64,000 bases of DNA from assembly GCA_016187925.1 (NCBI GenBank), contig JACPIS010000002.1:124001-188000 (forward strand). Reading direction: 5' to 3'. A program made the translations under genes and the position numbers. Numbering within the stretch: position 1 is the first letter of the stretch; each line of letters begins with the position of its first letter. The DNA comes from Opitutia bacterium (GTDB lineage Bacteria; Verrucomicrobiota; Verrucomicrobiia; Opitutales; Opitutaceae). Positions 32,403 through 51,580 of this stretch are shown one piece after another. The notes below the pieces were generated by a model, which ran no database searches, was not told where the DNA came from, and worked only from the letters and a program-made list of their open reading frames with translations.

Positions 32403-32810
32403 TTATTTGGCCGCGAAGAGTTCGCGCATCCGCTCCGTGAAAATAGCGGGTGGCCGGACGGGCTCGCCGGACTTGTTGATGAAGCCGTGGGTGGTGAAGC
32501 CCGTCACGAGCTTCTCCTCGCCGCGGAGCACCTCGTAATCGAGCCGGATGCGCAGCAGCGGTTTTTCCTTCAGCGTGGTGACGATGGTGATCGTGTCGTC
32601 GTAGCGCGCGGGTCGGAGATATTTGCAGCCGACCTCGAGCACGGGCAGGTAATAGCCCTGCTTTTCGAGGTCGGTGTAGGGCAGGCCGCACTCCTTGAGC
32701 AGGGTGGTGCGGCCGACCTCGAACCACGGCAGGTAGTTGCCGTGATAGACGACGCCCATCATGTCGGTCTCGGCGTAGCGGACGGTGATTTGCGTGCGGG
32801 AAACGAGCAT
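32403..32810 (-). CDS. YbgC-type hot-dog acyl-CoA thioesterase
   Basis: 135 residues. The N-terminus VRYAETDMMGVVYHGNYLPWFEVGR is the 4-hydroxybenzoyl-CoA thioesterase signature (Tyr-x-[ED]-T-D-x-x-G-hydrophobic-[VA]-Y-H-x-N-Y). The rest is a single hot-dog domain. Substrate is probably a short or medium acyl thioester, unresolved. No Tol-Pal genes are adjacent. ATG 32810 is chosen; the ATG at 32849 would run into the upstream glycosyltransferase. Seven bp separate it from that gene, so they form an operon. Confidence 0.87.
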   Translation of the reverse strand: MLVSRTQITVRYAETDMMGVVYHGNYLPWFEVGRTTLLKECGLPYTDLEKQGYYLPVLEVGCKYLRPARYDDTITIVTTLKEKPLLRIRLDYEVLRGEEKLVTGFTTHGFINKSGEPVRPPAIFTERMRELFAAK

Positions 32811-32817
32811 GCGGTGG

Positions 32818-33972
32818 TCAGGTTGAGGCGGCGGCGGGCGGTTGTCCAAACAAGGTCAGCGCGTTGTCCTGCCAGGTGTGCGCGAGTGCGCGCTGGCGGC
32901 CGGCGGAGCCGAAACGCCGACGCAGTTCCGGATCGGCGATGAGGCGGGCGAAGGCGGCCGTGAGCGCCGCGGGATCGTCGGGCGAGACGAGCAGGCCGGT
33001 CTCGCCTTGGGTCACGGCCTCCGCCACGCCACCGATGTCGTGGGCGACAACCGGCAGGCCGTGGGCACCGGCTTCGAGATAGACGAGGCCGAAGCCTTCG
33101 ACGCTCAGCTTGTGCGGCATGCTCGTCATCGCGAAGATGTCGGCCTGCGCGTAGAATTGCCCCAGTTGCTCGTCCGGCACGTCGCCGAGAAATTTGATGG
33201 GGAAGCCGGCGTTATTCGCCGCGGCCCGCAACGCCGGTTCATAGCGCTCCTTGCCGTGGCCGCCGACGAGCCAGTATTCGATTTGGGCGCGTTGCTCCGG
33301 CGGGAGGGCGCGCAATGCTTCAATGACACACAGCTGGCCCTTGCGAGGGTGGATGCGTGCCACGGTCAGGATGATGATGCGGCCGCCGGGCGGTTTGGCC
33401 GCGGGCGATGGGACGAACGTGAAACCCGTGCGCAAGGCGCCGGGCGTCAGCACAACCTTGTCGGCTGTGCGGGGAAAATATTGGAGCAGCAGTTCCTGGG
33501 CGTGCCGGCTGACCACGCTGATGCGGTTGGCGCGGGCGAAAAGCCGCCGGGCGCTCCAACGGGTGAGGGGACGCATCGCCAGCCGAAGGATTTCCGAGCC
33601 ATGCAAGGTCAGCACCAGGCGGCCGGGCGGCAAAGTGTCGAAAAATTGCAACAGCAGCATGGACAGCAAGGGGCCGGGCTCCGGAACGTAGAGCGTGCCA
33701 TCCTGCCAGGCGTCCCGTTGGGTCAGGATTTGCCGGGCCATCCGCCATTGATTGCGCCAACTATGGCTGCCGGTGATTGGCAGCCTGCGAACCGCGAACG
33801 GCCAGGCGGGTTCGACCACGGAGTCCGGGAGGGCGGGGGCCCAGACCTCGACGTCGTAGCCCAGCCGGGTCGCCGCGGCGGCCATTTCCGCCGTATAGAC
33901 CGCGATGCCGCCCCGGTGCGGATGAAATTCATGGGTCGCGATGATCAGTCGGTTGGTGGCGGGTCGCGGCAT
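32818..33972 (-). CDS. GT4-family glycosyltransferase
   Basis: 384 residues, GT-B fold. The N-terminal acceptor half starts LIIATHEFHPHRGGIAVYTAEMA. The C-terminal donor half has ILTVARIHPRKGQLCVIEAL, WLVGGHGKERY and EGFGLVYLEAGAHGLPVVAHDIGGVAEAV, the E-x7-E motif of retaining GT4 enzymes. Donor and acceptor unknown. Divergent from the ACP-dehydratase cassette across 182 bp of comparatively AT-rich DNA, which makes a link to that lipid cassette possible. Confidence 0.88.
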   Translation of the reverse strand: MPRPATNRLIIATHEFHPHRGGIAVYTAEMAAAATRLGYDVEVWAPALPDSVVEPAWPFAVRRLPITGSHSWRNQWRMARQILTQRDAWQDGTLYVPEPGPLLSMLLLQFFDTLPPGRLVLTLHGSEILRLAMRPLTRWSARRLFARANRISVVSRHAQELLLQYFPRTADKVVLTPGALRTGFTFVPSPAAKPPGGRIIILTVARIHPRKGQLCVIEALRALPPEQRAQIEYWLVGGHGKERYEPALRAAANNAGFPIKFLGDVPDEQLGQFYAQADIFAMTSMPHKLSVEGFGLVYLEAGAHGLPVVAHDIGGVAEAVTQGETGLLVSPDDPAALTAAFARLIADPELRRRFGSAGRQRALAHTWQDNALTLFGQPPAAAST

Positions 33973-34154: not shown

Positions 34155-35108
34155 ATGGCACAGGCAGCTAACAATCCTTCGGGATTCCCCCTCAAACCGT
34201 TTACGCCCGAAGACGATGCAAATTTGCGCGAAGCTTTGAAGCGTTGCTCGGCAGCGACTTACGAGGCGGCGGCGCAATTTCGCAAAACGGGTAACACGGA
34301 GCATTTGCCAGCCATCGTGCTGGGCATCATCGAGCGCTATGTGGAGCCGGATCTGCGGGCCAAATTGAAGGATGCCGACGACGACCTGCGCATTATCGAG
34401 GATCTGGGCATCGATTCCCTGACGATGATGGAGATCGTCATCCTCGTTGAGGACGTGCTCCAAATGTCGATCAACAACGACGAACTCCGTCACTTGCGGA
34501 CCGTCGGCGACGTGAAGACTTTCATCGAGTGCAAGGTTCGTGGCATGCCACTGCCCCGTCCGACCAAATTCCTGCCGATCGAGCACATCGCCTCGGTCAT
34601 GCCGATCCAGCCGCCGTTCCTGTTTCTGAGCGAGGCCTCGGTGAACGCCCACGGTGCCAACGCCAAGTACAAGATCAGCGGCCAGGAATTCTTCCTGCAG
34701 GGCCATTTCAAGGACAACCCGGTGCTGCCGGCGTCGATCATGCTTGAGGCGCTCGGCCAGCTCGGCGTGTTGTTCCTCCTCGAGGGCCAGGTTGGCGAGG
34801 CCGGCAAGACCGTCGATCCGAAGATGATTTTCTTCACCTCGTGCGAAGGCGTTCGATGCCACCGCGTGTGCCGCCCCGGCGACGTGCTGACTCTCTCGAT
34901 CAAGCCGAAACGCCTGAAGCTCCCGCTCGCCACCTTCGAGGGCCAGATTCGCGTCGGCCAGGAAAAGGCGGCGATCGCCGAGGAAATCACCCTGACGTTT
35001 GCCTTCGCCGAGGAGATCGCCCAACCGGCCGCTCAGGCGGCTCCGGTTTCCGCCGTCGCGCCCAAGCTTGAGGCGGACAGCGAACAGGCGACGGCCGTCA
35101 ACGCCTGA
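34155..35108 (+). CDS. Acyl-carrier-protein domain fused to FabZ/FabA-like hot-dog dehydratase
   Basis: 317 residues. Residues ~45-130 are an ACP with LRIIEDLGIDSLTMMEIVILVE; Ser88 is the phosphopantetheine site. Residues ~138-290 are a hot-dog dehydratase with GQEFFLQGHFKDNPVLPASIMLEALGQ: His184 and Glu198 match the FabZ catalytic pair, though PG of the usual GHFPG is KD. The tail is Ala/Pro-rich. It would carry the growing chain and dehydrate 3-hydroxyacyl groups in the same polypeptide. It is the first gene of a rightward cassette with a ketosynthase, an SDR and a glycosyltransferase. Pathway product unknown. Confidence 0.85.
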   Translation: MAQAANNPSGFPLKPFTPEDDANLREALKRCSAATYEAAAQFRKTGNTEHLPAIVLGIIERYVEPDLRAKLKDADDDLRIIEDLGIDSLTMMEIVILVEDVLQMSINNDELRHLRTVGDVKTFIECKVRGMPLPRPTKFLPIEHIASVMPIQPPFLFLSEASVNAHGANAKYKISGQEFFLQGHFKDNPVLPASIMLEALGQLGVLFLLEGQVGEAGKTVDPKMIFFTSCEGVRCHRVCRPGDVLTLSIKPKRLKLPLATFEGQIRVGQEKAAIAEEITLTFAFAEEIAQPAAQAAPVSAVAPKLEADSEQATAVNA

Positions 35109-35215
35109 CACCGCTCCGGGCGGGCGTGGTGATTGACCGGGTGGTTAAAACCGCTTTGATTCGCCGCATGTCGCCGGCGGGCAGTTGTCCGTCGTGCGAC
35201 TCCTGACCATACATC

Positions 35216-36481
35216 ATGCGCAAAGTCTATATTACGGGCGTCGGCTTCATCACCAGTATCGGCAACGATGCTGTCACGGTTTCGGAAAGCCTGCGCGAAT
35301 TGCGCCACGGCATGGTGCAGTATCCGCCTTTTCAGAAACCGGACGTGCCGGTGAAGGTGGCGGCGCCCATCCGCGATTTCTCCACCGATTCCACGGATGC
35401 GGAGGACTGGGTCATTCCCGCGCGCTATACGGTGAAACGCGAAATTCTCCGCGGCATGGCGCCGCACGGTCTCTATGCCTACTGTGCGATCCAACAGGCC
35501 GTGGAAGATGCGAAGCTGACCGAGGCCGACTATTCGAATCCCCACACCGGACTCTATGCCGCGTCGGGCGGCTCGCCTTTTCTGCTCGGCTACTACCTCG
35601 AGCGCATGCGCAAGCACGGCGTCATGCGCTGCCAGCCGCTCGGCATTGTGGCTTCGATTTCCGGGACGGTGAACTTCAATCTCGTCTCGCACTACAAGAT
35701 CAAGGGGGCGTCCACGGGTTTCTCCTCGGCGTGTGCCTCGTCCGCGCATGCCCTCGGTTTCGCCTACGATGAGATCGCGCTCGGTCGGCAGAAACGCATG
35801 TTCGTGGTGGGTGCGGAGGACGGCAACGTCGAGAGCATCCTGCCCTTCGCCGGCATGCGCGCCCTGTCCTTGCAAACCGATCCATCCGTGGCTTCCCGGC
35901 CGTTCGATGTGGCGCGGGATGGTTTTGTCGGCACGGGCGGCGCCACAGTGGTCGTGTTGGAAAGCGAAGAAGAGGTCGAACGCCGCGCGGCCAAGGTCTA
36001 TTGCGAGGTCGCCGGCTGGGGGCAGGCCTCCGACGGTCACAACGTCGCCATCTCGCATCCCGAGGGCACCGGCCTGCGCACGGCGATCGACAACGCGCTG
36101 CGCTCCGTCGACATCTCGCCGGATGCCGTCGACTATGTGAACGCCCACGCGACCTCCACGCCGATCGGCGATCTTTCCGAGATCAAGGCCCTGAAGACGG
36201 TCTTCGGTTCGGCGGCGACGACGCGGCCCGCGATCAGCAGCACCAAGGCCTTGACCGGCCACGGCCTCTCGCTGGCGGGGGCGATGGAGGCAGGGTTCTG
36301 CGCCCTGGCCATCCGCGAGGGCTTTATGCCCGGCTCGGCGCACATCACCAATCTCGATCCAGCCTGTGAAGGCCTGAACATCATCCGCGCCACGCTCCCC
36401 AATCGTCCGAACGTCGTGCTGAGCAACAGCAGCGGCTTCGGCGGTGCGAACGTCGCCCTCGTTTTCCGCAGCGTCGGCTGA
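35216..36481 (+). CDS. Beta-ketoacyl-ACP synthase (FabF/KAS II-like)
   Basis: 421-residue thiolase-fold condensing enzyme. All three catalytic residues are visible: Cys173 in GFSSACASSAHAL, His311 in VNAHATSTPIGDL, and His349 in STKALTGHGLSLAG (Lys344). C-terminal NSSGFGGANVALVF closes the fold. It diverges from a typical housekeeping FabF (for example in the region after residue 40) and sits in a cassette, so a dedicated lipid product is likelier than bulk fatty-acid synthesis. It lies 107 bp after the ACP-dehydratase gene and 16 bp before the SDR gene. Confidence 0.88.
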   Translation: MRKVYITGVGFITSIGNDAVTVSESLRELRHGMVQYPPFQKPDVPVKVAAPIRDFSTDSTDAEDWVIPARYTVKREILRGMAPHGLYAYCAIQQAVEDAKLTEADYSNPHTGLYAASGGSPFLLGYYLERMRKHGVMRCQPLGIVASISGTVNFNLVSHYKIKGASTGFSSACASSAHALGFAYDEIALGRQKRMFVVGAEDGNVESILPFAGMRALSLQTDPSVASRPFDVARDGFVGTGGATVVVLESEEEVERRAAKVYCEVAGWGQASDGHNVAISHPEGTGLRTAIDNALRSVDISPDAVDYVNAHATSTPIGDLSEIKALKTVFGSAATTRPAISSTKALTGHGLSLAGAMEAGFCALAIREGFMPGSAHITNLDPACEGLNIIRATLPNRPNVVLSNSSGFGGANVALVFRSVG

Positions 36482-36497
36482 CCGGCCGGATCCGCGC

Positions 36498-37328
36498 ATG
36501 AGCCACTCCCTTGCCGCCCGTTATCGCACCGCCTTTGTTACGGGCGCGAGCACGGGTCTCGGGCTGGCGTTCGCCGAGATGCTGCTCGCCGAGGGCGTCG
36601 AGGTATGGGGCACAACGCGCGATCCCAAACGCCTGCCTGCGCGCGCACGCTTTCATGCTGTCGCGCTCGAGCTGGGTGATGGCGCCGCGGCGGAGGAGAT
36701 TTTTCTCGAAGCCGAGCACGCCGCCGGGAGCTTCGATCTGGTCGTCAACAACGCCGGATTCGGTGCCTTCGGGGCGTTTGCCCACACCGAGTTCGCCGTC
36801 TGGGAGGAGCAGTTGCGGGTGATGCTCGTGAACACCGCGCGGCTCAGCCACGCCGCTCTGCGCGGAATGTTGGCACGAAACCGCGGCGCGCTGGTCAACG
36901 TCTCGTCCATTGCCGGCGAGTTCGCCATGCCCTACCAAGCCATCTACAACACCACCAAGGCCGGTCTCTCGGCGCTCAACGAAAGCCTGATGTACGAGGT
37001 CAAGGGTACGGGCGTCATCGTCATCGACCTGCGTCCCGGCGATTACCGCACTGACTTCGAGGGCTCCGTGCGCTATCCGGCGCAGACCGGCGCGCCCGCT
37101 GCCACCGCTTCGCGCATGGCGCGCGCGCGCGCGGTGTTCGAAGGCATGATGCGTTCCGGTCCCGCGCCGGCGCATGCCGCCGCGACGCTCCGCCGCGCCC
37201 TGCAGCGCGGTCGCAGTGGCACGGTCCGCACGGGACGGTTTTTCCAAGCCGTGCTGGCCCCTTTCCTCGCGCGCTTTGGCCCGCTGAAACTGAAGCGGAC
37301 GATTCAGGAAAAATATTTCGGTCTCTGA
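36498..37328 (+). CDS. Short-chain dehydrogenase/reductase of the lipid cassette
   Basis: 276 residues, classical SDR: FVTGASTGLGLAFAE (NAD(P)-binding TGxxxGxG), LVVNNAGFGAFG, VNVSSIAGEF with catalytic Ser, and YNTTKAG carrying the Tyr-x3-Lys pair. Residues ~210-276 form a basic C-terminal extension. By position it is the likely 3-ketoacyl reductase of the pathway. A sterol- or glycolipid-type reductase cannot be excluded. Four bp separate it from the next gene. Confidence 0.85.
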   Translation: MSHSLAARYRTAFVTGASTGLGLAFAEMLLAEGVEVWGTTRDPKRLPARARFHAVALELGDGAAAEEIFLEAEHAAGSFDLVVNNAGFGAFGAFAHTEFAVWEEQLRVMLVNTARLSHAALRGMLARNRGALVNVSSIAGEFAMPYQAIYNTTKAGLSALNESLMYEVKGTGVIVIDLRPGDYRTDFEGSVRYPAQTGAPAATASRMARARAVFEGMMRSGPAPAHAAATLRRALQRGRSGTVRTGRFFQAVLAPFLARFGPLKLKRTIQEKYFGL

Positions 37329-37331
37329 TCC

Positions 37332-38543
37332 ATGGCGCGCGTCCGCATCCTCGTCCTCACTTCCAGCACCGGCGCCGGGCACGACGCCCGGGCCCAAGCC
37401 TTCGCCGAATGGTGCTTCGAGCTCTACCGGCACGATGTCGATGTGCGCATCGAGCAGATGCTCGAGAAATCCTCCCGCATGTTCGGTTGGGGCGTGAGTT
37501 TCTACAATTGGATCCAGAAGAAGTCGCCGTGGATGCACAAGGCCTTCTTCCTCTTCGTCGAGCTGCTCAGCCTGCTCAACCGCCGCTCGGTCGCCTGGGG
37601 CCGGCGCTACTACGAGGCGGTGCTGCGCGAATACCGCCCGCACCTCGTTTTCAGCGTCCACGACTGTCTTAATCGCGGCTATTTCCAGCTCGCGCGCAAG
37701 ATCCTCGGGGCGGAGCACGTTCGCTGCGCCACCTACTGCGGCGAGTTTTCCGGCGGCTTCGGCTACAGCATCAACTGGGTCGAGCCTACCGCCGATCTCT
37801 ACATCTCCCGCACACCCACGGCGCGCGACTACGCCGTGAAGCTCGGCATGCCGCGCGAGCGCACGCGCGTGCGCGGCCACCTGATGCAGCCGCGCGCGAG
37901 TATCGAGGTGCTGTCCAACAGCTCCCGGCGCGCCTTCCGGGAGCAGGACCTCGAGCTGAAGCCCGATCTCTTCACGGTCTTCCTCGCTACCGGCGGCAAT
38001 GGCGCCAACAACCACCTCGAACTTCTGCCGCGTCTGCTCCCGCACGCCGGCCAGCTTCAGGTCATCGTCATCTGCGGCAAGAACCGCGAGGCCTACAATC
38101 AGGTCGTGCACTGGCGCGCCGAGCATCCGGAGCTGGAGTGCTACGTCGACGGCTTCTCCGAGGAGGTGCACCTGCTCCTGCAGGCCAGCGACTGCGTCGT
38201 CACGCGCGGCGGCACCACCACCTGCGCCAAGGCGCTGCATTTCCACTGCCCGGTCATCTTCAACGCCATCGGCGGCATCATGCCGCAGGAAGAGCTGACG
38301 GTTAAGTTTTTCCGGAACGGTCGCGGTGCCGAGCTCATCGAGAACGCCGCCGATTTTGACGCCCTCATCAATCGCTGGATGAACAGCCGCCGCGACTACG
38401 AGGCGCTGCGGGAGCGTTTTCTCGACCTCCGCTACGAAGAAGATCCGACGGTCGTCATCGAGGAAATCGTCGATCTGGCGCAGGAAGCCGCGGGCACCGG
38501 GCTCAAGGCCCGGCAGTTTCCGCCCCGGCCGCAAAAGCGCTGA
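37332..38543 (+). CDS. MurG/MGDG-synthase-like glycosyltransferase (GT28-type)
   Basis: 403 residues, GT-B fold. N-terminus ILVLTSSTGAGHDARAQAFAEW is the glycolipid-synthase glycine loop (GxGH). The middle has FSVHDCLNRGY and the C-terminal half FLATGGNGANNH, VICGKNREAYNQ and DCVVTRGGTTTCAKALHFHCPVIF, the nucleotide-sugar-binding region of MGDG synthase/MurG relatives. Such enzymes add a sugar to diacylglycerol or a polyprenyl/lipid acceptor at the inner face of the membrane. Last gene of the cassette and a natural candidate to glycosylate its lipid product. The homologous group is known; the acceptor is inferred. Confidence 0.86.
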   Translation: MARVRILVLTSSTGAGHDARAQAFAEWCFELYRHDVDVRIEQMLEKSSRMFGWGVSFYNWIQKKSPWMHKAFFLFVELLSLLNRRSVAWGRRYYEAVLREYRPHLVFSVHDCLNRGYFQLARKILGAEHVRCATYCGEFSGGFGYSINWVEPTADLYISRTPTARDYAVKLGMPRERTRVRGHLMQPRASIEVLSNSSRRAFREQDLELKPDLFTVFLATGGNGANNHLELLPRLLPHAGQLQVIVICGKNREAYNQVVHWRAEHPELECYVDGFSEEVHLLLQASDCVVTRGGTTTCAKALHFHCPVIFNAIGGIMPQEELTVKFFRNGRGAELIENAADFDALINRWMNSRRDYEALRERFLDLRYEEDPTVVIEEIVDLAQEAAGTGLKARQFPPRPQKR

Positions 38544-38821: not shown

Positions 38822-39559
38822 CTAGGCTTTGGAGCAGACGGCGGCCATGCTCCGGGACAGGGAGGGATGCAGGCGGTCGGCGAGCGCGCTGTAGAAACGG
38901 TCCTTCGTTCCGCTGAAACGATAGAGTCCCAGCCGGTCAAACTTGCGCGTGATGAGTCCGGCTGCGGCGATGGCGGCTTCCAGCTCCGCCTTGGTGTATT
39001 CGCGGATATGTCCCATATCCTTGGGGTTCGGCCGCAGGGGCTCGAAGGGATTCCGGCCGCAGAGCAGCTTGAGCCGGTTCTTGAGCCAGGCGGCGTTCGG
39101 CGTGGTCACGATCATGACACCGGCGGTTGAAAGCCGCCCGCCCAGGTCGCGCAACACTAGGTCGGGCGGCGTGTAAAGATGCTCCAGTACCTCCATGAAC
39201 AGGATGAGATCGTAGTCGCCGGCGTCGGCCGGGGCGGCGTGCGGATGCAGCATCCGGGAAACCCCGTTCAGGTCCAGCTCATGGAACCGGAATTCTCTCT
39301 CGGGGCGGAACCGCGCTTCTTCGCCGATGCCGGCGCCTTCGATCGTCGCCTCCGGGAGCAACCGGCGCAGCAGGAGCGTCTGGAAGCCAATGCCGATGTC
39401 GAGGACGCGCCGGAGAGGACGCTCGCGTTGCAGCTGTTCGATCTCGCGTGCGATGTAAACGAGACGTGGCAGATGGCATTTCCAGTAATGGACGGTCGCG
39501 CCGCCCAGCTTCGTGGCGTAGGCGGAAAGCTCGTCCAAGATGGCAGGGAGTTGGTCCAT
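38822..39559 (-). CDS. SAM-dependent methyltransferase (Methyltransf_23-like)
   Basis: 245 residues. Motif I VLDIGIGFQTLLLRRLLP (atypical G-I-G), then DYDLILFMEVLEHLYTPP (the FxxVLEHL post-motif of lipid/sugar methyltransferases) and GVMIVTTPNAAW. C-terminus has MGHIREYTKAELEAAI, typical of the glycan-region family. Substrate unknown. ATG 39559 is used; an in-frame start at 39619 is possible. It is isolated from leuD by a terminator. Confidence 0.8.
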   Translation of the reverse strand: MDQLPAILDELSAYATKLGGATVHYWKCHLPRLVYIAREIEQLQRERPLRRVLDIGIGFQTLLLRRLLPEATIEGAGIGEEARFRPEREFRFHELDLNGVSRMLHPHAAPADAGDYDLILFMEVLEHLYTPPDLVLRDLGGRLSTAGVMIVTTPNAAWLKNRLKLLCGRNPFEPLRPNPKDMGHIREYTKAELEAAIAAAGLITRKFDRLGLYRFSGTKDRFYSALADRLHPSLSRSMAAVCSKA

Positions 39560-39633
39560 GGGTCGGAACAACTGATAGCGGCAAAGAAGGTCCGGCGGCA
39601 AGGAACCCTTTGTGCGCACCGGCCATGCTCACG

Positions 39634-39660
39634 AAAAAGGCGCGGCTGGCGGCCGCACCT
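39634..39660 (-). terminator. Terminator after leuD (first of two hairpins)
   Basis: Read leftward, GGTGCGGC-CGCCA-GCCGCGCC forms an 8-bp stem with one G-U pair, followed by TTTTT. A second hairpin without a T-run (GGCGGGAT-CACCAA-ATCCCGCC, 39673-39694) lies closer to the leuD stop. Confidence 0.8.
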
Positions 39661-39700
39661 TGGGGGAAACGAGGCGGGATTTGGTGATCCCGCCCTGCGG

Positions 39701-40306
39701 TCAGGCGGCGAGGTAGGGCAGCTTGGCGGCGGTGGCCTTGACGGCGGGGATGCCGTCGAGCAGCTCGCCGATGGCGTCCCAACGACCGTTCACCAGTGCA
39801 TCGCGGGCGGACTCGCGCTGGGTGATCTTTACGCTCTGGCCGGCGAAGCGGACCTCCCGCTGCACGAGGTCGATGACAACTTCCGTCTGGGGATTTTTCT
39901 CCACGGCGGCGGTGATCTTGGCGATGTCTTCACGGCTGGCGCTGACGCAGGGGATGCCGAGCGTCGTGCTGTTGCCGAAGAAGATCTCGGCGTAGCTCTC
40001 GGCGATGATCGCCTTGAAACCGTATTTCTGGATGGCCTGCGGGGCGTGCTCACGGGAGGAGCCGCAGCCGAAGTTGGCGCCGGAGAGCAGGATCGTGGCA
40101 GCCTTGAAGCGCGGGTCGTTCAACGGGTGATGGGTCGTCTCTCCGGTCTTGGGGTCCTGGCGGACGTCGTTGAAGAGAAATTCGCCGAGGCCGTCGAACG
40201 TCACGCACTTCATGAAGCGCGCGGGGATGATGCGGTCGGTGTCGATGTCGTTGCCCGCGACGGGCACGGCGCGGCCGGTGACGGAGGTGATTTTAGCGAG
40301 GGCCAT
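39701..40306 (-). CDS. leuD: 3-isopropylmalate dehydratase small subunit (LeuD)
   Basis: Partner of LeuC in leucine synthesis: isomerises 2- to 3-isopropylmalate. The 201-residue protein has GNDIDTDRIIPARFMK, GANFGCGSSREHAP and IAESYAEIFFGNSTTLGIP, the substrate-recognition features of the aconitase swivel subunit. Length is normal. It lies 103 bp downstream of leuC, across a CACTAAT-type repeat element. Confidence 0.94.
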   Translation of the reverse strand: MALAKITSVTGRAVPVAGNDIDTDRIIPARFMKCVTFDGLGEFLFNDVRQDPKTGETTHHPLNDPRFKAATILLSGANFGCGSSREHAPQAIQKYGFKAIIAESYAEIFFGNSTTLGIPCVSASREDIAKITAAVEKNPQTEVVIDLVQREVRFAGQSVKITQRESARDALVNGRWDAIGELLDGIPAVKATAAKLPYLAA

Positions 40307-40325
40307 GGAAGGGGATTTTTTGAAC

Positions 40326-40376
40326 CACTAACGCACACTACTGAGACACTAATGTTTGGGTGGTTCGGATTAGTGG
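40326..40376. repeat. Second CACTAAT-type decamer element, between leuC and leuD
   Basis: Units CACTAAC, CACTACT and CACTAAT begin at 40326, 40336 and 40347, i.e. at about 10-bp spacing, and an inverted ATTAGTG follows at 40369-40375. This is the same plan as the element at 1601-1690, with more substitutions. Confidence 0.6.
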
Positions 40377-40409
40377 GAGATGAGTGGAGATGAGTGGTTA
40401 ACGGATTTG

Positions 40410-41822
40410 TCAGTTCACCGCGAAGACCTCGCGGGCGTCGGCGACGGTGCCGGTGACGGCGGCGGCGGCGACCATGAGCGGGCTCATGAGCAGCGTGCGG
40501 CCGGTGGGCGAGCCTTGGCGCCCCTTGAAGTTGCGGTTCGAGGAGCTGGCGCAGAGCTGGTCGCCCACGAGCTTGTCGGGGTTCATCGCGAGACACATCG
40601 AGCAGCCGGCGGCGCGCCACTCGAAGCCGGCCTCGACGAGGATCCGGTCGATACCCCGCTTCTCGCACTGGAGCGCGACGATCTGCGAGCCGGGGACGGC
40701 GATGGCCTTCACGCCGGGCGCGACCTTTTTGCCCTTCACGTATTTGGCGACCTCCTGGAAGTCCGAGAGGCGGCCGTTGGTGCAGGAGCCGAGGAAGGCG
40801 ACGTCGATCTTCGTGCCCTTGAGCGGCGCGCCGGCGGGCAGCTTCATGTAGGCGAGCGCTTCGATGATGCCGGCCTTGTCGTCGGCGGAGGTGGCCGTCT
40901 CCGGGCTCGGGATGTTCTCGACGATGGAGATGCCCTGGCCGGGGTTGATGCCCCAGGTGACGGTCGGCGCGATGCTGGCCGCATCGATCTTCACGACATC
41001 GTCGTAATGGCAGCCCGGATCGCTGGCGAAGCTCTGCCAGTTCGCCACGGCGGCGTCCCACGCGGTGCCGGTGGGCGAGTAGGGGCGGCCCTTGAGGTAG
41101 GCGAAGGTCGTCTCGTCGGGATTGACGTAGCCGACGCGCGCGCCGCCCTCGATGGACATGTTGCACACGGTCATGCGCTCCTCCATCGAGAAACCGTCGA
41201 ACGTGCTGCCGGCGTACTCGTAGGCGTAGCCGGTGCCGCCGTTGACGCCGAGCCGGCGGATGATGTGGAGTATGACGTCCTTCGCGTAAACGCCGGGGCG
41301 GAGCCGGCCGTTGACCTCGATGCGGCGGACCTTGAGCGGCCCGAGCGCCATGGTCTGCGTGGCGAGCACGTCGCGCACCTGGCTGGTGCCGATGCCGAAC
41401 GCGATGGCGCCGAACGCGCCGTGCGTGGAGGTGTGCGAGTCGCCGCAGGCGATGGTCGTGCCCGGCTGCGTGATGCCCTGCTCGGGCCCGACGATGTGCA
41501 CGATGCCCTGCTTGCCCGTGGCGCGGTCGAAGAACGTGATGCCGAACTCGCGGCAGTTCTTGCGCAGCTCGTCCATCATGGCCTGCGCGAGCGGATCCTG
41601 GTAAGGTTCGACCAGCTCGTTGGTCGGCACGATGTGGTCGACCGTCGCGAACGTGCGGTGCGGCATCAGGACCTTGAGGCCGAGGTCGCGCAACATGCCG
41701 AAGGCCTGCGGCGAGGTGACCTCGTGGATGAGGTGCGTGCCGATGAGCAGCTGCGTCTGGCCGTTGGCCAGTTTTTTGACCGCATGGGCGGCCCAGACTT
41801 TTTCGAAGAGGGATTTGGGCAT
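40410..41822 (-). CDS. leuC: 3-isopropylmalate dehydratase large subunit (LeuC)
   Basis: [4Fe-4S] aconitase-family subunit of 470 residues. Visible: [53 protein letters not shown] (first cluster Cys) and [12 protein letters not shown] (the other two Cys). Full length. First gene of leuCD and divergent from a LysR-type regulator, which suggests regulation by that protein. Confidence 0.95.
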
Positions 41823-41917
41823 GGAAGGGAGCGGATGAAAGCGGGGAGGGAAGGGTGACGGGCGGCCAGATTACCAAAAAGTTGCCATAACCGGAAATAC
41901 TTGTTTCGTGCTCTGTG
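41823..41917. promoter_or_regulatory. Divergent control region between leuC and a LysR regulator
   Basis: 95 bp shared by leuC (leftward) and the LysR gene (rightward). It contains a comparatively AT-rich core (ATTACCAAAAAGTTGCCATAA). LysR proteins usually bind T-N11-A sites in such gaps; I cannot place a specific site with confidence. Confidence 0.5.
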
Positions 41918-42829
41918 ATGCCTCGTGAGTATCAATACCCGTTCGAGCTCCGGCACCTCGTCTACTTCCGCGAGGTGGCGCGGCAGCTGCATTACCGCAA
42001 GGCGGCCGAGGTGCTCGCCGTGGCGCAGCCGGCGCTCTCGCGCAGCGTCACGCAGCTGGAGACGGCGCTGGGCGTCGATCTGCTCAACCGCACGCGCCGG
42101 CGCGTCGAGCTCACGGCGGCCGGCCGGGCGTTTCTCGAGCGCATCGAACCGTTGCTGCGCGCACTCGCGGCGGTGCCGGGCGACATCCAGGCGCTGGCGG
42201 GCGGCCAGACCGGGCATGTGCGCGTGGCGTTCACGGGTTTGGCGATGGCGACGGTGCTGCCGGGCATCCTGCGCGAGTTCAACCGCCGCTATCCCGGCAT
42301 CCGCGTCGAGCTGAACGAGTCGCCGACCGCGGCGCAGCTCGAGGCGCTGAAGACGGGCGAGATTTCCTGCGGCTTTTTCCATCCGGATGCCACACCGGCG
42401 CCGGGCCTTTCGACCAAGCTGCTGCTGCAGGAAAAAAACGGCGTGTTGCTGCCGGCCGACCATCCGGTGGCCCGGGCGAAGAAACTCCGGCTGCGCGACC
42501 TGGCGGACATCCCGTTCGTGATGTTTCCGCGCACGCACAACCCGGGCTTCTACGACCGCGTGCTCGTGGCGTTCCAGCAGGCCGGCATCACGCCGCGTAT
42601 CGCCGACGAGGTCTGGCCGCGCGCCAACGCCATCGGCCTCGTCCGCGCCGGGCTGGGCGCGACGTTCATGTGCCCGTCCGAGGCGAAGCAGCTGCCGGAC
42701 GAGGTGGCCTTCCGCCGGCTCGACGGCCCGGCGCCCGAGAGCCGGCTCGTGCTCGGCTGGCGCAAGGACGTGGCGCCCGACGCCGCGCTCGGCGCCTTCC
42801 TCGTCGTCGCCGGCGCGGCCACCGCGTGA
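41918..42829 (+). CDS. LysR-family transcriptional regulator
   Basis: 303 residues. N-terminal winged HTH: ELRHLVYFREVARQLHYRKAAEVLAVAQPALSRSVTQLETALGVDLLNRTRR, followed by a substrate-binding domain. By divergence it probably controls leuCD; its co-inducer is unknown. The ATG at 41918 follows a GTG at 41915 in the same frame. It ends 8 bp before the start of a glycosyltransferase. Confidence 0.9.
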   Translation: MPREYQYPFELRHLVYFREVARQLHYRKAAEVLAVAQPALSRSVTQLETALGVDLLNRTRRRVELTAAGRAFLERIEPLLRALAAVPGDIQALAGGQTGHVRVAFTGLAMATVLPGILREFNRRYPGIRVELNESPTAAQLEALKTGEISCGFFHPDATPAPGLSTKLLLQEKNGVLLPADHPVARAKKLRLRDLADIPFVMFPRTHNPGFYDRVLVAFQQAGITPRIADEVWPRANAIGLVRAGLGATFMCPSEAKQLPDEVAFRRLDGPAPESRLVLGWRKDVAPDAALGAFLVVAGAATA

Positions 42830-42837
42830 GTTTTTTT

Positions 42838-44091
42838 GTGTCATCCCGTGCGCCCTTTCCTCTAGTTTTCCCGGCCTTGGCCTCCTCCCCGCCCACCATC
42901 GCGCTGCTCTTCACGACGTTCCCGAAAACCTCGGAGACGTTCCTGCAGCGCGACGTGGCGGCGTTGCAGGCGCAAGGGCTGAACCTCCGGCTCTACTCGC
43001 TGTGGGGCGGGGGCGGGGAGTTCCGCGGCCTGCCGGTGCGCCGCTTCAATCTCTGGAGGCTCGTGCCGCTGCTCCTCTTCATCATCCCGTGGAACTGCCT
43101 CCGCCGTCCGCGCATCGTGCGCGACCTGTTCGAGGGCGTGCTCATGCGGCCGCCGCCGTCGTGGCTGAATTTCTGGGAGAACATGCTCGGGGCGGGCTTC
43201 GCCGGCTGCTTCTACGCCGAGTTTCGCAAAGACCCGCCGGCGCTCGTGCACGGCGCGTGGGCCGGAGCGCCCGCTACTGCGGGCTGGCTGCTCTGGCGCA
43301 TCCTCGGCATCCCTTACAGCACCGGGGCGCACGCCTACGATCTCTACGAGCACGGTGGCGACTGGTGGCTGCTGGAAAAACTCCGGCTGGCGCGCTTCAT
43401 CCACACGTCGACCGAGATGGGCCGGCAGCTGCTCATCGAGCGCGGCATCGCCGCGGCGAAGATCCACACCATCCGCCGCGGCCTGGAAAGCTTCCCCGAG
43501 CTGAAGTCGCTCCGGCCCGACCGCCGCCCGCTGCGGCTCGTCTGCGTCGCACGGCTCGTGCCGAAGAAGGGCTTCGATCATCAGCTGCGCATCTACGCGG
43601 CGCTCAAGCACGCGGGTGTGCCCTTCGAGGCGCGCATCCTCGGCGACGGTCCGCTGCACGAACGGCTCGAAGGCACGGTGGTCAGCATGGGCCTGGCGGA
43701 TCAGGTGGCTTTTCTCGGCCATGTGCCGCATCCCGACGTCTGGAAGCATCTCGCGTGGGCCGATGTTCTGTTGCACACCGGCATCATCGCGCCGAGCGGC
43801 GACCGTGACGGCCTGCCCAACGTCATCCCCGAGGCGATGGCGGCGGGCGTGCTCGTGGTGACCTCGCCCGTCTCGGCCACGACCGAGGCAATCACGCAGG
43901 AGCGCACCGGCCTCGTGGCCGACGTCGATTTGCCGCAGGCGTGGGTGGCGGAACTCAAGCGCCTGGCGAGCGACGATGCGCTGGCCGAGCGCCTGCGCGT
44001 GGCGGCGCGCCACTGGGTCGAGGAGAATTACGATGCCCGCAAGAACACGGCCGAACTCATCGAGTGCTTCCGGGGAGCGATGCAGCCATGA
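42838..44091 (+). CDS. GT4-family glycosyltransferase (colanic-acid-like)
   Basis: 417 residues from GTG 42838; a TTG at 42877 would place the start just before IALLFTTFPKTSETFLQRDVAAL, the conserved N-terminus. GT-B donor domain: LVCVARLVPKKGFDHQL, ARILGDGPLHERLE, GDRDGLPNVIPEAMAAGVLVVTSPVS. The N-terminal motif FPxxSETF is typical of exopolysaccharide GT4 enzymes such as WcaL. Its stop overlaps the ATG of the next glycosyltransferase, so the two are coupled. Confidence 0.86.
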   Translation: MSSRAPFPLVFPALASSPPTIALLFTTFPKTSETFLQRDVAALQAQGLNLRLYSLWGGGGEFRGLPVRRFNLWRLVPLLLFIIPWNCLRRPRIVRDLFEGVLMRPPPSWLNFWENMLGAGFAGCFYAEFRKDPPALVHGAWAGAPATAGWLLWRILGIPYSTGAHAYDLYEHGGDWWLLEKLRLARFIHTSTEMGRQLLIERGIAAAKIHTIRRGLESFPELKSLRPDRRPLRLVCVARLVPKKGFDHQLRIYAALKHAGVPFEARILGDGPLHERLEGTVVSMGLADQVAFLGHVPHPDVWKHLAWADVLLHTGIIAPSGDRDGLPNVIPEAMAAGVLVVTSPVSATTEAITQERTGLVADVDLPQAWVAELKRLASDDALAERLRVAARHWVEENYDARKNTAELIECFRGAMQP

Positions 44092-45134
44092 TCTACTACG
44101 ATGTCACCAAGATGTCCGGCGCCCGGCAGAAGTCCGGGCTGACGCGCGTCAGCACACGCCTGCTGGATGAACTGGGCGACGCCGTGACGCCGGTCGTCTG
44201 GGACGGTCGCAAGCACGCGTGGATGGATGCCGCCAGCCGCAAAGCCGTGGCGCTGCAGGCGACCGACTGGCTGCTGACGGTGGAATTATTCAGCGGAGCG
44301 GAGCGGCCGGGCTTGCGGGAATTTATCGCTGCGCCGCCCTGCCGGCTGGCAGCGATGTTTCACGACGCGATCCCGCTGCGCTGGCCGCACATCACCTGGC
44401 CGCAGAGCGTGCAGCGGCATCCCGACTACATGAAGCTGCTCGCGGGCTTCGACCGGGTGTTCGCCGTCTCCGAGGCGAGCCGGCGCGACTTGATGGAGTT
44501 CTGGCGCTGGCAGGGCGTAGCGGTGAAAGCGCAGGTGCAGACGGTCGAACTCGGGGCGGATTTCGACGGTTCGCCGCGCGTGGTCGCGTCGCCGGTGCCG
44601 GCGCGCGCATCGTTGCTCTGCGTCGGCATCATCGAGCCGCGGAAGAACCAGGCTTTTCTGTTGGAGGTCTGCGCGGCGCTTTGGCGCGAGGGACTGGACT
44701 TCGACCTGCATGTCGTCGGCCGCGTGAATCCGCACTTCGGTGCGCCGATCGAGCGCCAGCTCAAGCAGGCGCAGAAGCGCGAGCAGCGCTTGCGCTACCA
44801 TGCGCAAGCGAGCGATGCGGTGCTGGCCAAGCTCTATGCCGAAGCGTCGGCGGTGGTGTTCCCGACCATTGCGGAAGGCTGCGGTCTGCCGTTGCTGGAA
44901 TCGCTCTGGCGCGGCGTGCCGTGCGTGGGCAGCGATCTGCCCGTGCTGCGGGAGAATGCCGACGCCGGAGGTTGTCTCATGGTGGAGGTCAACGATGCGG
45001 ACGGCTGGCGACGTCAGTTGCGCGCGGTGCTGACCGAAGCGGCGCTTCAACAGCGGTTGAGCGCGGAGGCGGCGAAGCGTGGTTTGCCGCGTTGGGCAGA
45101 TACGGCGAAAACCCTGCGGGCGGCGCTCGGTTGA
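44088..45134 (+). CDS. GT4-family glycosyltransferase
   Basis: 348 residues. The N-terminus carries SGLTRVSTRLLDEL, a variant of the T-G-I-Q-R-V motif in some mannosyl- and rhamnosyltransferases. Then MFHDAIPLRWP (equivalent to the FHD/YD in that group) and donor half LLCVGIIEPRKNQAFLLEV and TIAEGCGLPLLESLWRGVPCVGSDLPV. Shares its plan with the enzyme at 46407-47585. Coupled by a 4-bp overlap to the upstream gene; convergent with the aminotransferase gene. Confidence 0.87.
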   Translation: MIYYDVTKMSGARQKSGLTRVSTRLLDELGDAVTPVVWDGRKHAWMDAASRKAVALQATDWLLTVELFSGAERPGLREFIAAPPCRLAAMFHDAIPLRWPHITWPQSVQRHPDYMKLLAGFDRVFAVSEASRRDLMEFWRWQGVAVKAQVQTVELGADFDGSPRVVASPVPARASLLCVGIIEPRKNQAFLLEVCAALWREGLDFDLHVVGRVNPHFGAPIERQLKQAQKREQRLRYHAQASDAVLAKLYAEASAVVFPTIAEGCGLPLLESLWRGVPCVGSDLPVLRENADAGGCLMVEVNDADGWRRQLRAVLTEAALQQRLSAEAAKRGLPRWADTAKTLRAALG

Positions 45135-45144
45135 GCGCGGCGGC

Positions 45145-46341
45145 TCAGAGCCGTTTGACGGCGTAAGCCATCGCGGCGCCGATCTTCTCGAGGTCCTCGT
45201 CGCTGTGCAGCGCCGAGACGGCGGTGCGGATGAGGTCCTTGCCCGGAGGCACGGCGGGTGCGATCGACATGACGGTGAAGACGCCCTTCTCGAGCAGCGC
45301 CTGCCAGAAGCGGTAGACGAGTTCCTTCGAGCCAAGCACGATCGGCACGGCGGGCGTCTCGCTCTCCCAGGTGTCGAGGCCGAGGCCCTTGAGCATCTCG
45401 CGGTAGCGCTTGGTGTTTTTCCAGAGGCGCTCGAGGTGCTGCGGCTCGCTCTGCATGAGGTCGAGCGAGGTGGAGGCGGTGGCGACCTGGCTCGGGCTGA
45501 GCGCGGCGCTGAAGATGGTCTGCTTGGAATTGGTGCGCAGATACTCGATGAGGTCGCGCGAGCCGGCGACGAAGCCGCCGGTGCTGGCGAGCGACTTCGA
45601 CATCGAGCCGCAGAGGATGTCGACCTTGTCGTTCATCTTAAAATGGTCGACGGTGCCGCGGCCCTGGTGGCCGAGCACGCCGAAGCCATGGGCGTCATCG
45701 AGCACGGTGAAGCAGCCGTTCTCCTCGCCCAGTTGCGCGAGCTCGGGCAGGCGGCAGATGTGGCCCTCCATCGAATAGACGCCCTCGAGCACGAGCAGCT
45801 TGGGGATGTTGTGCGGGGTGCCCTTGAGCACCTGGCGCAGATCCTCGGGGTTGTTGTGGCTGAAGCGCTCGACGGCGGCCATCGACAGGCGGATGCCGTC
45901 CCACAGGCAGGAATGGATGTTCTTGTCGGCGACGATGAGGTCGCCCTTCTGCGCGAAGGTCGCGACCGATGAGCAGCACGAAATGTAGCCGGCGACACTG
46001 ATGTGGCAGGCCTCGCGGCCGAGAAAAGCGGCGAGCTTTTCCTCGAGCTCGATGTGATAGGCGCGCGAGCCGTTGGAGATGCGAGCGCCGGTCGAGCTGG
46101 TGCCCCAGGCCTTGGCGGCGTTGCCGCAGGCCTCGATGACCTTGGGATGGAAGGACAGACCGAGGTAATCGTTGCTTGAAAGCATGATCATATCGCGCCC
46201 CTGCAACCGGATGTGCGTGCCCTTCTGCGCCTCCATGGCGTGGTAGTAGGGCTTGTATTTGAGGCGGACTTTCGTGGCGTAGTCGTCCTGGGCGCGCTCG
46301 ATGATCGGCTTCTTGGTCTTGGTAAAAAGGGACAGGGACAT
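45145..46341 (-). CDS. Alpha-oxoamine synthase, serine-palmitoyltransferase-like
   Basis: PLP enzyme condensing an amino acid with an acyl thioester. 398 residues, fold-type I: SSNDYLGLSFHPKV, NGSRAYHIELEEKLAAFLG, VLDDAHGFGVLG, and the lysine loop GSMSKSLASTGGFVAG (Schiff-base Lys249). This loop (SKSLASTGGF) resembles bacterial serine palmitoyltransferases (SKSxAxxGGF) more than BioF or Kbl, so a sphinganine-type long-chain base or related lipid is the favoured product. A BioF-type role cannot be excluded. It sits among glycosyltransferases, with no obvious biotin genes nearby. Confidence 0.8.
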   Translation of the reverse strand: MSLSLFTKTKKPIIERAQDDYATKVRLKYKPYYHAMEAQKGTHIRLQGRDMIMLSSNDYLGLSFHPKVIEACGNAAKAWGTSSTGARISNGSRAYHIELEEKLAAFLGREACHISVAGYISCCSSVATFAQKGDLIVADKNIHSCLWDGIRLSMAAVERFSHNNPEDLRQVLKGTPHNIPKLLVLEGVYSMEGHICRLPELAQLGEENGCFTVLDDAHGFGVLGHQGRGTVDHFKMNDKVDILCGSMSKSLASTGGFVAGSRDLIEYLRTNSKQTIFSAALSPSQVATASTSLDLMQSEPQHLERLWKNTKRYREMLKGLGLDTWESETPAVPIVLGSKELVYRFWQALLEKGVFTVMSIAPAVPPGKDLIRTAVSALHSDEDLEKIGAAMAYAVKRL

Positions 46342-46406: not shown

Positions 46407-47585
46407 TTAGTCGCGCCGCTTCAGGGTTTTCATCCACGATCCGAGATCGTCGGCATAGCCGCTCCATGTCCGGAAAGTCCGCCCGCGAGCCGCGGCCGCC
46501 AGGGCGTCGCGCTCCTGCGCGCTCCCCAGCAATCGCCGCAGCGCTGCGGCCAGGCTGGCGGAGTCAACAGGGTGCAAGACAACGCAACCGCCGCCGCGGG
46601 CCGATTCTCCGAGCGCGCCGCGCGCCGCGCAGATGCACGGCTTGCCGTGCTGCAAACTCTCCAGCACCGGCAGGCCGAAGCCCTCGACGAGCGACGGATA
46701 AACCGTGAACGCGCACCGTTGATATGCGGCCTGCAATTCCGCGTCGGACACGCTGCCGTGAAAAACCAGGGCACGGCCGGCGGCCTGCAGTGCGCGAATC
46801 CGGTTCAGGGCGGCCGCCGCGGTGTCGGCCCGCGCCAGCCCGATCAGCTCCAGCTCGAAGACAACGCCTTCGCGCCAGAGCGTCTCGGCAGCGTCGAGCA
46901 GCGCGAGATGGTTCTTCCGCCCCTCGACGGTGCTGACGCACAGCACGCGCCGCTTCGGGTCGGTGGCGGATGTGGAGGCGCTCGCGGCGGCGGGCACGGG
47001 ATCGATCCCGAGCGGAATCACCTGCACGGGTGGCGCGTGGGTGACGCCCAGCCACGACCAGAAATCGCGCAGACTCGCCGCGGAATCCTCGGAGACGGCG
47101 GCGATGCCGTCGAATTGGAGCAACTCGCGCAAGTAGCCGGGCAGGCGCGCGACGGTGCCGGGCGGTGTGAGCTCGGGGAATTTCAGGCCGATGGCATCGT
47201 GAAACAGCGCCACGCGCGGGCCGCGAGTATGGGCGAACAAGGCGGGCAGTTGCGCGGCGACTTTGGGCGAAAAAAGTTCAGGGCAGACGAGGCCGGTGGC
47301 GGCGGGCAGGGTCGGGCGGCGGCCGGTGAGCCGGCGCGCGTGGCCGGAAATTTTTTGCGCGAGACTCCACCTGGCGCCGCGCGATTGACCGGCGCGGGCA
47401 GAGCGGTCGCTCAGCGCGGCCAGTTCCCCGGCATCGAGCGGACGCCAGGCGCCGAGATGCGGGTCGAAGCAGATTCCGCGCGCGGCCTCGCGCGCCGGCA
47501 ACTCGGCGAACAGCGAGCGGCACACGCGTTGGATGCCCGTGCGCGCGCGGGTGTGGCTGGTGTGGGTGAGATCGAGCAGCAGCAT
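46407..47585 (-). CDS. GT4-family glycosyltransferase
   Basis: 392 residues. N-terminus LLLDLTHTSHTRARTGIQRVCRSLFAEL carries the T-G-I-Q-R-V motif; later ALFHDAIGLKFPEL, VLCVSTVEGRKNHLALLDA and LVEGFGLPVLESLQHGKPCICA, the donor-binding motifs of GT4. It is of the same subtype as the enzyme at 44088-45134. Three bp separate it from the upstream GT39-like gene, so they are one operon. Donor and acceptor unknown. Confidence 0.87.
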   Translation of the reverse strand: MLLLDLTHTSHTRARTGIQRVCRSLFAELPAREAARGICFDPHLGAWRPLDAGELAALSDRSARAGQSRGARWSLAQKISGHARRLTGRRPTLPAATGLVCPELFSPKVAAQLPALFAHTRGPRVALFHDAIGLKFPELTPPGTVARLPGYLRELLQFDGIAAVSEDSAASLRDFWSWLGVTHAPPVQVIPLGIDPVPAAASASTSATDPKRRVLCVSTVEGRKNHLALLDAAETLWREGVVFELELIGLARADTAAAALNRIRALQAAGRALVFHGSVSDAELQAAYQRCAFTVYPSLVEGFGLPVLESLQHGKPCICAARGALGESARGGGCVVLHPVDSASLAAALRRLLGSAQERDALAAAARGRTFRTWSGYADDLGSWMKTLKRRD

Positions 47586-49082: not shown

Positions 49083-49194
49083 TCTTTAGCGTTGTCGAGC
49101 GGGCGAGCGTGGCATTGCTTGCAGGAATGGCACAAACCAAAAACCCCGGCAGCTTCCACGCAGCGTGCGCCGGCCGGGACTTGCGCCGCCGGTG

Positions 49195-50835: not shown

Positions 50836-50842
50836 CCGGTGT

Positions 50843-51580
50843 TCAGGGTTTGCGGGCGAGATATCCCCAGCTCTCGATTTCCGAGCCGGCCGCGTCGTAA
50901 CGATAGGCGTGGAGGATTTCCGCTCCGGCGGCATGCAGGGTGGCCTCGACTTCCGCGCGCGGAATGCAGTGCATTTCCATCACCGGTTCGATCGCGAGCT
51001 TGCGCTTGGTCCAGCGCCACAGGCGCCAGGCGAGCGTGTCGGGCCAGAGCGTGAACGAGCGGCGGCGGGGCGTGACCGTGGCCGGCAGCTGGAAAAAGAT
51101 GGCGCCGCCCGGCGCGGCCACGCGCACGAATTCCTCAATGTAGCGGAGCGCGTAGGCCGGCTCCATGTGCTGGAGCGTGAGGAGGCTGTAAACGAAATCG
51201 AACGTATCGTCGGGCAGCAGGCGCAGGTCCGGGTGCGGGTTGTGCAGGTAGCGCACCCGCGCGCCGTGCTGGTTGTAGCGGTGGGCGTGAGCGAGCATGT
51301 TCTCAGAGAGGTCGATTCCTGCAACCGACTGAAAGTGCCCCGCAAGGGCCTGGCTCAGGCGGCCGACGCCACAGCCGAAGTCGAGGGCGGAGTTGGTACG
51401 CAATTCGGGATAGCCGGCACGCACGCGGGTGAGTTCGGCGGCAACGATCCGACGACCGTCGGCAAAGAATTCGTCAACCTGCCAGCGATTACCCTTCTTA
51501 TCCGGGTCGGTCAAAATGGCCCAAAGCGGGTCGGTCTGCGCGAAGCGATTCCAGTGGCGACGGGTGGAGGAGAGTCTCAT
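50843..51580 (-). CDS. SAM-dependent methyltransferase
   Basis: 245 residues. Motif I ALDFGCGVGRLSQALAGHF, motif II AGIDLSENMLAHAH, then DTFDFVYSLLTLQHMEP and VAAPGGAIFFQLPAT. N-terminus has HWNRFAQTDPLWAILTDPDKKG, a conserved opening of methyltransferases in glycan clusters. Substrate unknown. It lies 9 bp downstream of the glycosyltransferase at 51590-53287. Confidence 0.85.
   Translation of the reverse strand: MRLSSTRRHWNRFAQTDPLWAILTDPDKKGNRWQVDEFFADGRRIVAAELTRVRAGYPELRTNSALDFGCGVGRLSQALAGHFQSVAGIDLSENMLAHAHRYNQHGARVRYLHNPHPDLRLLPDDTFDFVYSLLTLQHMEPAYALRYIEEFVRVAAPGGAIFFQLPATVTPRRRSFTLWPDTLAWRLWRWTKRKLAIEPVMEMHCIPRAEVEATLHAAGAEILHAYRYDAAGSEIESWGYLARKP

Follow-up and report, generated by a model that had tools for sequence, protein, structure and literature searches.

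A conserved acyl carrier–dehydratase, ketosynthase and glycosyltransferase cassette in Opitutaceae that may contribute to a sphingolipid-like glycolipid

A cassette of four genes encoding an acyl carrier protein (ACP) fused to a dehydratase (DH), a beta-ketoacyl-ACP synthase (KS), a short-chain dehydrogenase/reductase (SDR) and a glycosyltransferase of family GT28 is conserved among the close relatives of an Opitutia bacterium, and may help to build a sugar-bearing, sphingolipid-like membrane lipid. The four open reading frames (ORFs) lie on the plus strand at positions 34155–38543 of the window, by which we mean the whole 64,000-nucleotide stretch that was analyzed (G000:C6:124001-188000, from a genome of 3,995,137 bases in 48 contigs), and the closest named relatives of its ACP-DH locus are metagenome-assembled genomes (MAGs) of Opitutaceae. 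Many relatives have it within a larger gene set that also includes glycosyltransferases of family GT4 and a gene resembling serine palmitoyltransferase (SPT); the membership of these genes points to a sphingolipid-type rather than a glycerolipid product. The gene families, the catalytic residues, the gene order in close relatives and the linkage to the SPT-like gene are read from the sequences themselves. We put the chances about evenly that the cassette supplies the acyl carrier and the first glycosylation step in a glycosphingolipid-type pathway. The preliminary description of these genes as a dedicated lipid or glycolipid cassette therefore stands as to their conserved order in close relatives and is revised as to their extent and probable product, the set being larger and the indicated lipid of the sphingolipid type.

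The four genes and their conservation

The ORF list and the Pfam matches agree on four co-directional genes. The first (34155..35108, plus strand) encodes an N-terminal ACP fused to a FabZ-type DH, with Pfam matches to PP-binding (26.4 bits) and FabA (60.3 bits) that both exceed the curated cut-offs. The phosphopantetheine attachment residue Ser88 and the DH residues His184 and Glu198 are invariant in 22 aligned rows which, like the KS rows below, represent a chosen spread of loci rather than all of them. FabZ carries Glu at this dyad, and FabA carries Asp. An AlphaFold model of the fusion (mean pLDDT 81.4, pTM 0.60) combines a helical portion with one of mixed structure, for which the best PDB matches listed are FabZ structures; the DH domain combines a hot-dog fold with the His/Glu dyad, as FabZ does, and scores under the NCBIfam FabZ equivalog cut-offs (65.6 versus 113 bits and 59.2 versus 155.2 bits). 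The KS gene (35216..36481, plus strand), which starts 107 bases past the end of the ACP-DH gene, matches the N- and C-terminal ketoacyl-synt families of Pfam above their curated cut-offs, and its residues Cys173, His311, Lys344 and His349 are invariant in 18 of 18 aligned rows. The protein is FabB/FabF-like and lies under both curated equivalog cut-offs (FabB, the top match, 332.4 versus 630 bits; FabF, 318.2 versus 493.8 bits).

The third gene (36498..37328, plus strand) encodes a 276-aa SDR that is a putative ketone reductase and is missing from the cassettes of some relatives. Its start is most likely the ATG at 36498, because the alternative GTG at 36444 falls within the KS gene, which stops at 36481. 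The Pfam match to adh_short (117.2 bits) is above the curated cut-off, and the motifs Tyr150-x3-Lys154 and GASTGLG (at residue 16) are common to SDRs and thus non-specific. The SDR gene ends 3 bases ahead of the GT28 gene (37332..38543, plus strand), the product of which matches Glyco_tran_28_C at 31.2 bits, again above the curated cut-off, and carries the motif STGAGH at residue 12. A monogalactosyldiacylglycerol (MGDG) synthase structure (4wyi) aligns across residues 5–379 (E 1.6e-10), and the diglucosyl-diacylglycerol (DAG) synthase equivalog is matched at 69.8 bits against a cut-off of 500, assigning the protein to the MGDG/diglucosyl-DAG synthase type. The preliminary description had called this last gene MGDG/MurG-like; the first half of that name is retained, and MurG identity was rejected as weak (27.4 versus 250 bits). 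It had also reported intact catalytic residues throughout, as is borne out by the alignments and, for the SDR, by the presence of the Tyr-x3-Lys motif.

Conservation of gene order, a check set beforehand, was examined in named genomes. The scan returned 312 ACP-DH relatives, of which the best 80 were used, a sample that leans to close kin: by title, these loci are from MAGs of Opitutaceae genera, of Opitutia/Opitutae, or of unplaced Verrucomicrobia. Counts on the 80 loci were restricted to those with enough available sequence, namely 60 loci with at least 4.2 kb downstream, 50 with at least 9.5 kb downstream, and 75 with at least 1.8 kb upstream. ACP-DH, KS and GT28 occur in order in all 60 loci of the first group; the SDR is present in 46 of these and not in 14. 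Among the 68 loci having both KS and GT28, the SDR lies between them in 52 and is cleanly absent in 16, where gaps of 44–178 bases remain. All 75 loci with enough upstream sequence have an opposite-strand GT4 gene upstream of ACP-DH. For a more distant sample, 40 stretches were taken from the family, order and class, each surrounding an ACP-DH or GT28 match; at least five were centered on a GT28 paralogue. All four genes occur in order in 14 of these stretches and three others lack the SDR only (L066, L071, L091); in the remainder, at least two parts are missing or the parts are separated. Within the family, some members carry ACP-DH and KS alone (L072, L073, L075) or just ACP-DH (L082). The cassette is thus real and conserved among close relatives, and we regard it as a family-level feature with losses because the full set erodes in more distant relatives.

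Some further arrangements of these genes were observed. In L072, L073, L075 and L266, ACP-DH and KS occur without SDR and GT28 and are followed by conserved frames of 728–734 aa and 220–232 aa. Stand-alone ACP paralogues, 53–58% identical to the cassette ACP, are found in five genomes that also have ACP-DH (L243–L247), near a frame of ~1110–1150 aa and a cluster with one FecR-family member. GT28 paralogues with 32–37% identity (L097, L099, L100, L102, L103, L260) are accompanied by a class III aminotransferase, as assigned by clustering and, for L099 only, by Pfam, together with either a 327–339-aa protein that appears membrane-embedded by eye or a 249–269-aa protein; neither neighbor has a Pfam match where scanned.

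The preliminary description further held that the cassette contains nearly a full elongation cycle. As a unit this is doubtful, given the absence of the SDR from 16 of 68 loci, its failure to reach any FabG or KdsR cut-off (best FabG match 99.6 versus 222 bits; TIGR01830, 84.4 versus 297.8 bits), and the presence of a FabF-ACP-FabG set elsewhere in the genome, on contig C41. The FabG of that set exceeds its cut-off (321.2 versus 297.8 bits), which, with the optional nature of the cassette SDR, speaks against the SDR being a private elongation-cycle reductase. The same separate set led us to reject the cassette as the housekeeping fatty acid synthase: the cassette proteins share the fold and catalytic residues of the type II enzymes FabZ and FabF, lie under the equivalog cut-offs, and are on a different contig from the genome's own set. 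Nor is a chain left unsaturated at C2–C3 implied, as had been proposed, with completion elsewhere as the alternative, from the lack of an enoyl reductase. That absence says little because a FabI-like reductase (174 versus 370 bits) is encoded elsewhere, on contig C44; no enoyl reductase always linked to the cassette was seen among the neighbors scanned, in the absence of a systematic search.

Linkage to a serine palmitoyltransferase-like gene

An alpha-oxoamine synthase (AOS) gene at 45145..46341, on the minus strand, is convergent with the cassette. The closest PDB chain to its product is the SPT 8guh (305.6 bits, 138 of 357 aligned residues identical), which we take to be from S. multivorum, ahead of the best BioF/Kbl chain (244.8 bits) and a cysteate acyltransferase (202.5 bits). 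Residues His138, Asp210, His213 and Lys244 of 8guh align with His143, Asp215, His218 and Lys249, and none of these positions varies among the 13 rows aligned. Since the rows include the genome's own Kbl, the residues are characteristic of the AOS family as a whole and do not single out SPT. The pyridoxal phosphate (PLP) motif is GSMSKS, compared with GTLGKA in the genome's Kbl. For SPT, the motif is given as GTFSKS in PMC10196870, and the residue numbering of 8guh is consistent with that paper. In a tree of 17 rows, which includes three SPT and three other references and in which two non-SPT branches are long, the three SPTs are joined, against BioF/Kbl and with support of 98/98, by all 11 rows drawn from the order and class to which the window belongs. 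The only other AOS-family match in the genome is Kbl (629.9 versus a cut-off of 460 bits). BioF identity was rejected, as the tree groups the protein with SPT instead and no bioB was found in the genome (best match 25.6 versus 225 bits). The product of 45145–46341 thus groups with SPTs rather than BioF or Kbl, and its predicted activity is SPT-like.

In close relatives (L084, L085 and others), GT28 is followed in the operon by one GT4 gene or two, beyond which lies the AOS gene on the opposite strand. The window contains the same genes, a GT4 (42826..44091, plus strand, start approximate) that directly follows GT28 in many relatives and a second GT4 (44088..45134, plus strand) that overlaps the first by ATGA, with an interruption between GT28 and the first GT4 consisting of a methyltransferase, leuD, leuC and a lysR-type gene at 38822–42829. 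The leuD/leuC pair is at the same place in four of the 80 named loci (L163, L164, L166, L168), many of which are short. ACP and the SPT-like gene occur together in 19 of 70 stretches, where they are accompanied by GT4 (19 of 19), DH (18), KS (17), GT28 (15) and SDR (13). Two of the arrangements (L068, L074) combine ACP-DH, GT4 and the SPT-like gene with no KS, and a third (L260) has an ACP without DH alongside KS, SDR, GT4, GT28 and the SPT-like gene; for this reason, ACP and GT4 are regarded as the common partners of the SPT-like gene. In genome G267, the set is split, with ACP-DH/KS apart from an intact SDR-GT28-GT4-GT4-SPT run (L266, L267).

Co-occurrence was then counted across genomes. 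Among 288 genomes of the phylum (thresholds of E<=1e-25 for ACP-DH and E<=1e-90 for the SPT-like gene), 29 have both genes, four have only ACP-DH (G055, G056, G209, G272), three have only the SPT-like gene (G204, G172, G106), and 252 have neither, corresponding to a Fisher p of 3.5e-32 in a test that ignores relatedness. Of the SPT-like-only genomes, G204 carries the ACP-only variant described above (L260). With thresholds of 1e-25 and 1e-70, respectively, 57 relatives comprise 42 genomes with both genes, 10 with neither, four with only ACP-DH (G022, G051, G055, G056) and one with only the SPT-like gene, which is 50% complete; G004, a genome of the same genus that is 98% complete, has neither. 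Relatedness was addressed with an rpoB tree of 45 of 49 rows, from which G049, G052, G026 and G036 were removed as too short; no rpoB match was obtained at the threshold for eight of the 57. Across four well-supported independent pairs differing in ACP-DH, the SPT-like gene differs the same way in a mean of 3.7 and the opposite way in 0.0, and across five pairs differing in the SPT-like gene, ACP-DH differs the same way in a mean of 3.6 and shows no difference in 1.4.

A predicted glycosphingolipid-type pathway and its alternatives

For the substrates, the hand-over from ACP to the SPT-like enzyme, the substrate of the SDR, and the product, we infer a route from family membership, neighborhood and co-occurrence. 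The ACP domain of the fusion would serve as a dedicated carrier on which KS and the FabZ-type DH extend or adjust the chain, with FabG and the FabI-like reductase supplied from elsewhere in the genome. The SPT-like enzyme would condense an amino acid (serine being the likeliest) and the acyl thioester, with acyl-ACP as the preferred form, into a 3-keto long-chain base, the 3-keto group of which would be reduced by the SDR where present. An N-acyltransferase would complete the ceramide, GT28 would add the first sugar, and the GT4 enzymes would extend it. The more specific proposal, that ACP-DH and KS form a dissociated type II-like module dedicated to sphingolipids from which the ACP hands the chain directly to the SPT-like enzyme, is offered tentatively and is clearly less probable than the pathway in general. 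If true, Opitutaceae would make a glycosphingolipid from a private fatty-acid line rather than from acyl-CoA or a salvaged free fatty acid.

The roles of the carrier with SPT, of KS and DH in building the chain, and of the SDR in ketone reduction are proposed by analogy with rhodobacterial, Pseudomonas and Bacteroides precedents. A rhodobacterial SPT is fed by the dedicated carrier AcpR (PMC9386255), and the operon aasR-cerR-acpR-spt, with cerS apart (Caulobacter and E. coli BL21; PMC9386255 and the BL21 annotation), resembles the present set in linking SPT with a dedicated ACP and a reductase. It differs in that the cassette ACP is fused to a DH and accompanied by KS and glycosyltransferases, and in that the cassette reductase is a classical SDR whereas the rhodobacterial CerR is epimerase-type; no acyl-ACP synthetase or AMP-binding family was found in the 20 window proteins scanned with Pfam, and the acpR-aasR-spt combination is thus lacking there. 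In Pseudomonas, the polyketide synthase (PKS) SgaA, the SPT SgaB and the SDR SgaC are encoded in one locus (PMC12134224), which likewise brings together an SDR, an SPT-like AOS and chain building by a ketosynthase. The PKS in that locus, SgaA, is one iterative type I protein, in contrast to the separate type II-like proteins and glycosyltransferases conserved across the family here. Bacteroidetes provide the closest solved SPT, 8guh, and the 3-ketosphinganine reductase BT_0972 of Bacteroides is also an SDR (PMC9278070); their SPT uses acyl-CoA (PMC11324152), and no ACP-DH/KS cassette is described in the excerpts of these two papers. MGDG and processive DAG glucosyltransferases share the GT28 C-terminal domain, and the cassette GT28 resembles MGDG synthase over its full length, but in many relatives it stands in linkage with an SPT-like gene.

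For Verrucomicrobiota, the record of sphingolipid synthesis in the excerpted open-access literature searched consists of SPT-like proteins in 22 Black Sea MAGs (PMC11334938). A paper (PMC5673642) that proposes a part for Verrucomicrobia in metabolizing glycosphingolipids, by way of sulfatases, sialidases and galactosidases, concerns breakdown and is a separate matter. By title and start of abstract, no description of such a cluster was met among the open-access papers listed, which does not show its absence from print, and the terms 'polar lipid' and 'glycolipid' do not occur in the portions of two Opitutia taxonomy papers that were searched. The cluster thus offers a concrete gene set, a family to look in, and a candidate third route of acyl supply to SPT, in addition to acyl-CoA and AcpR/AasR.

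Several results weigh against the glycosphingolipid-type pathway. The NCBIfam SPT equivalog cut-offs were all missed (362.4 versus 640, 330.2 versus 500 and 266 versus 670 bits), which is why the name SPT-like is kept. The SDR matches KdsR as only its fifth-best NCBIfam family (111.3 versus 400 bits), the best being unnamed oxidoreductase subfamilies (130.3 bits), none above cut-off, and its best 40 PDB matches listed include FabG and other dehydrogenases and no 3-ketosphinganine reductase; the sequence evidence favors neither KdsR nor FabG. The linkage is also incomplete: 31 of the 70 stretches have ACP without the SPT-like gene and 13 the reverse, and the SPT-like gene is in reach in 28 of the 50 named loci with at least 9.5 kb downstream. 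ACP-DH, or a split ACP and DH, occurs with no SPT-like match in six genomes (G022, G051, G055, G056, G209, G272), three of which, G055, G209 and G272 from one family, have ACP, DH and KS without SPT or GT28, pointing to an independent function of the module in those genomes. Several genomes with neither gene are small or incomplete, and the phylogeny-aware pairs (four or five) agree in direction and are too few for significance, with a median p of 0.125. Finally, the cassette ACP resembles AcpR no more closely than it does the housekeeping ACP, and a CerS-like gene was found in none of 23 genomes using E. coli YghO as the query, in a search without a positive control.

The main rival is unusual fatty-acid synthesis: ACP-DH and KS would be an anaerobic unsaturated-fatty-acid module, or one for chain-specific elongation, that serves bulk membrane lipids, and the position beside GT28 and the SPT-like gene would reflect neighborhood alone. 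Under this rival, which we consider doubtful, the ACP/DH/KS module may have served an earlier acyl function or serve a different one. Against it, the DH carries the Glu of FabZ rather than the Asp of FabA, the L068 and L074 arrangements keep ACP-DH with the SPT-like gene and GT4 in the absence of KS, and the co-occurrence of ACP-DH with the SPT-like gene is strong. In its favor is the family that keeps ACP, DH and KS without SPT and GT28; the KS, with FabB as top match and FabF close behind, is compatible with it as well, as is the 8.4% C16:1 w5c of a Lacunisphaera species (PMC5303756), a lipid that nothing ties to these genes.

Less probable still, and in our judgment unlikely, is a DAG glycolipid pathway in which GT28 glycosylates DAG and ACP-DH and KS provide a special acyl chain. 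The proximity of GT28 to diglucosyl-DAG and MGDG synthases fits this explanation, as does G056, which has ACP-DH, KS, GT28 and GT4 with no SPT-like match. However, GT28 falls far under the curated DAG synthase cut-off, and of the 31 genomes among the 288 with GT28-type genes (E<=1e-60), 30 carry an SPT-like gene, with the qualification that in at least five of these (G186, G099, G177, G254, G063) the match is a distant GT28, 32–37% identical, away from ACP-DH. That the AOS uses cysteate, alanine or glycine instead of serine, so that the same cassette yields a sulfonolipid or 1-deoxysphingolipid-type product, is improbable: the PLP motif departs from that of SPT and, in an alignment judged by eye, Ala stands where the solved SPT has Ser81, but the solved cysteate-C-fatty acyltransferase scores some way below the solved SPT.

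Neighboring genes and a second acyl cluster

Three neighbors of the larger gene set are of uncertain membership. A GT4 gene (46407..47585, minus strand) upstream of the SPT-like gene adjoins it in many relatives, a divergent GT4 (32818..33972, minus strand) lies upstream of ACP-DH, and a conserved neighbor (32403..32849, minus strand) encodes a YbgC/FadM-family thioesterase (TIGR00051, 79 versus a cut-off of 68.7 bits). An aryl-polyene or other pigment cluster was considered and rejected, as no ligase or exporter family was found in the 20 window proteins scanned with Pfam, a check confined to the neighborhood from 32403 onward. Large frames without Pfam matches are present at 47589–50934 and 53259–55562, amid GT4 and methyltransferase genes adjoining the SPT-like gene, and the frame at 47589–49082 recurs in some relatives at 35–42% identity. 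The same genome contains a second acyl cluster on contig C44 (L344, 7806–15823), which encodes a KS within a 761-aa frame, an FAD protein of the amine-oxidase family, a FabZ-like protein, the FabI-like reductase mentioned above, and a KAS III-type protein (NF006720, 434.7 bits versus a cut-off of 285).

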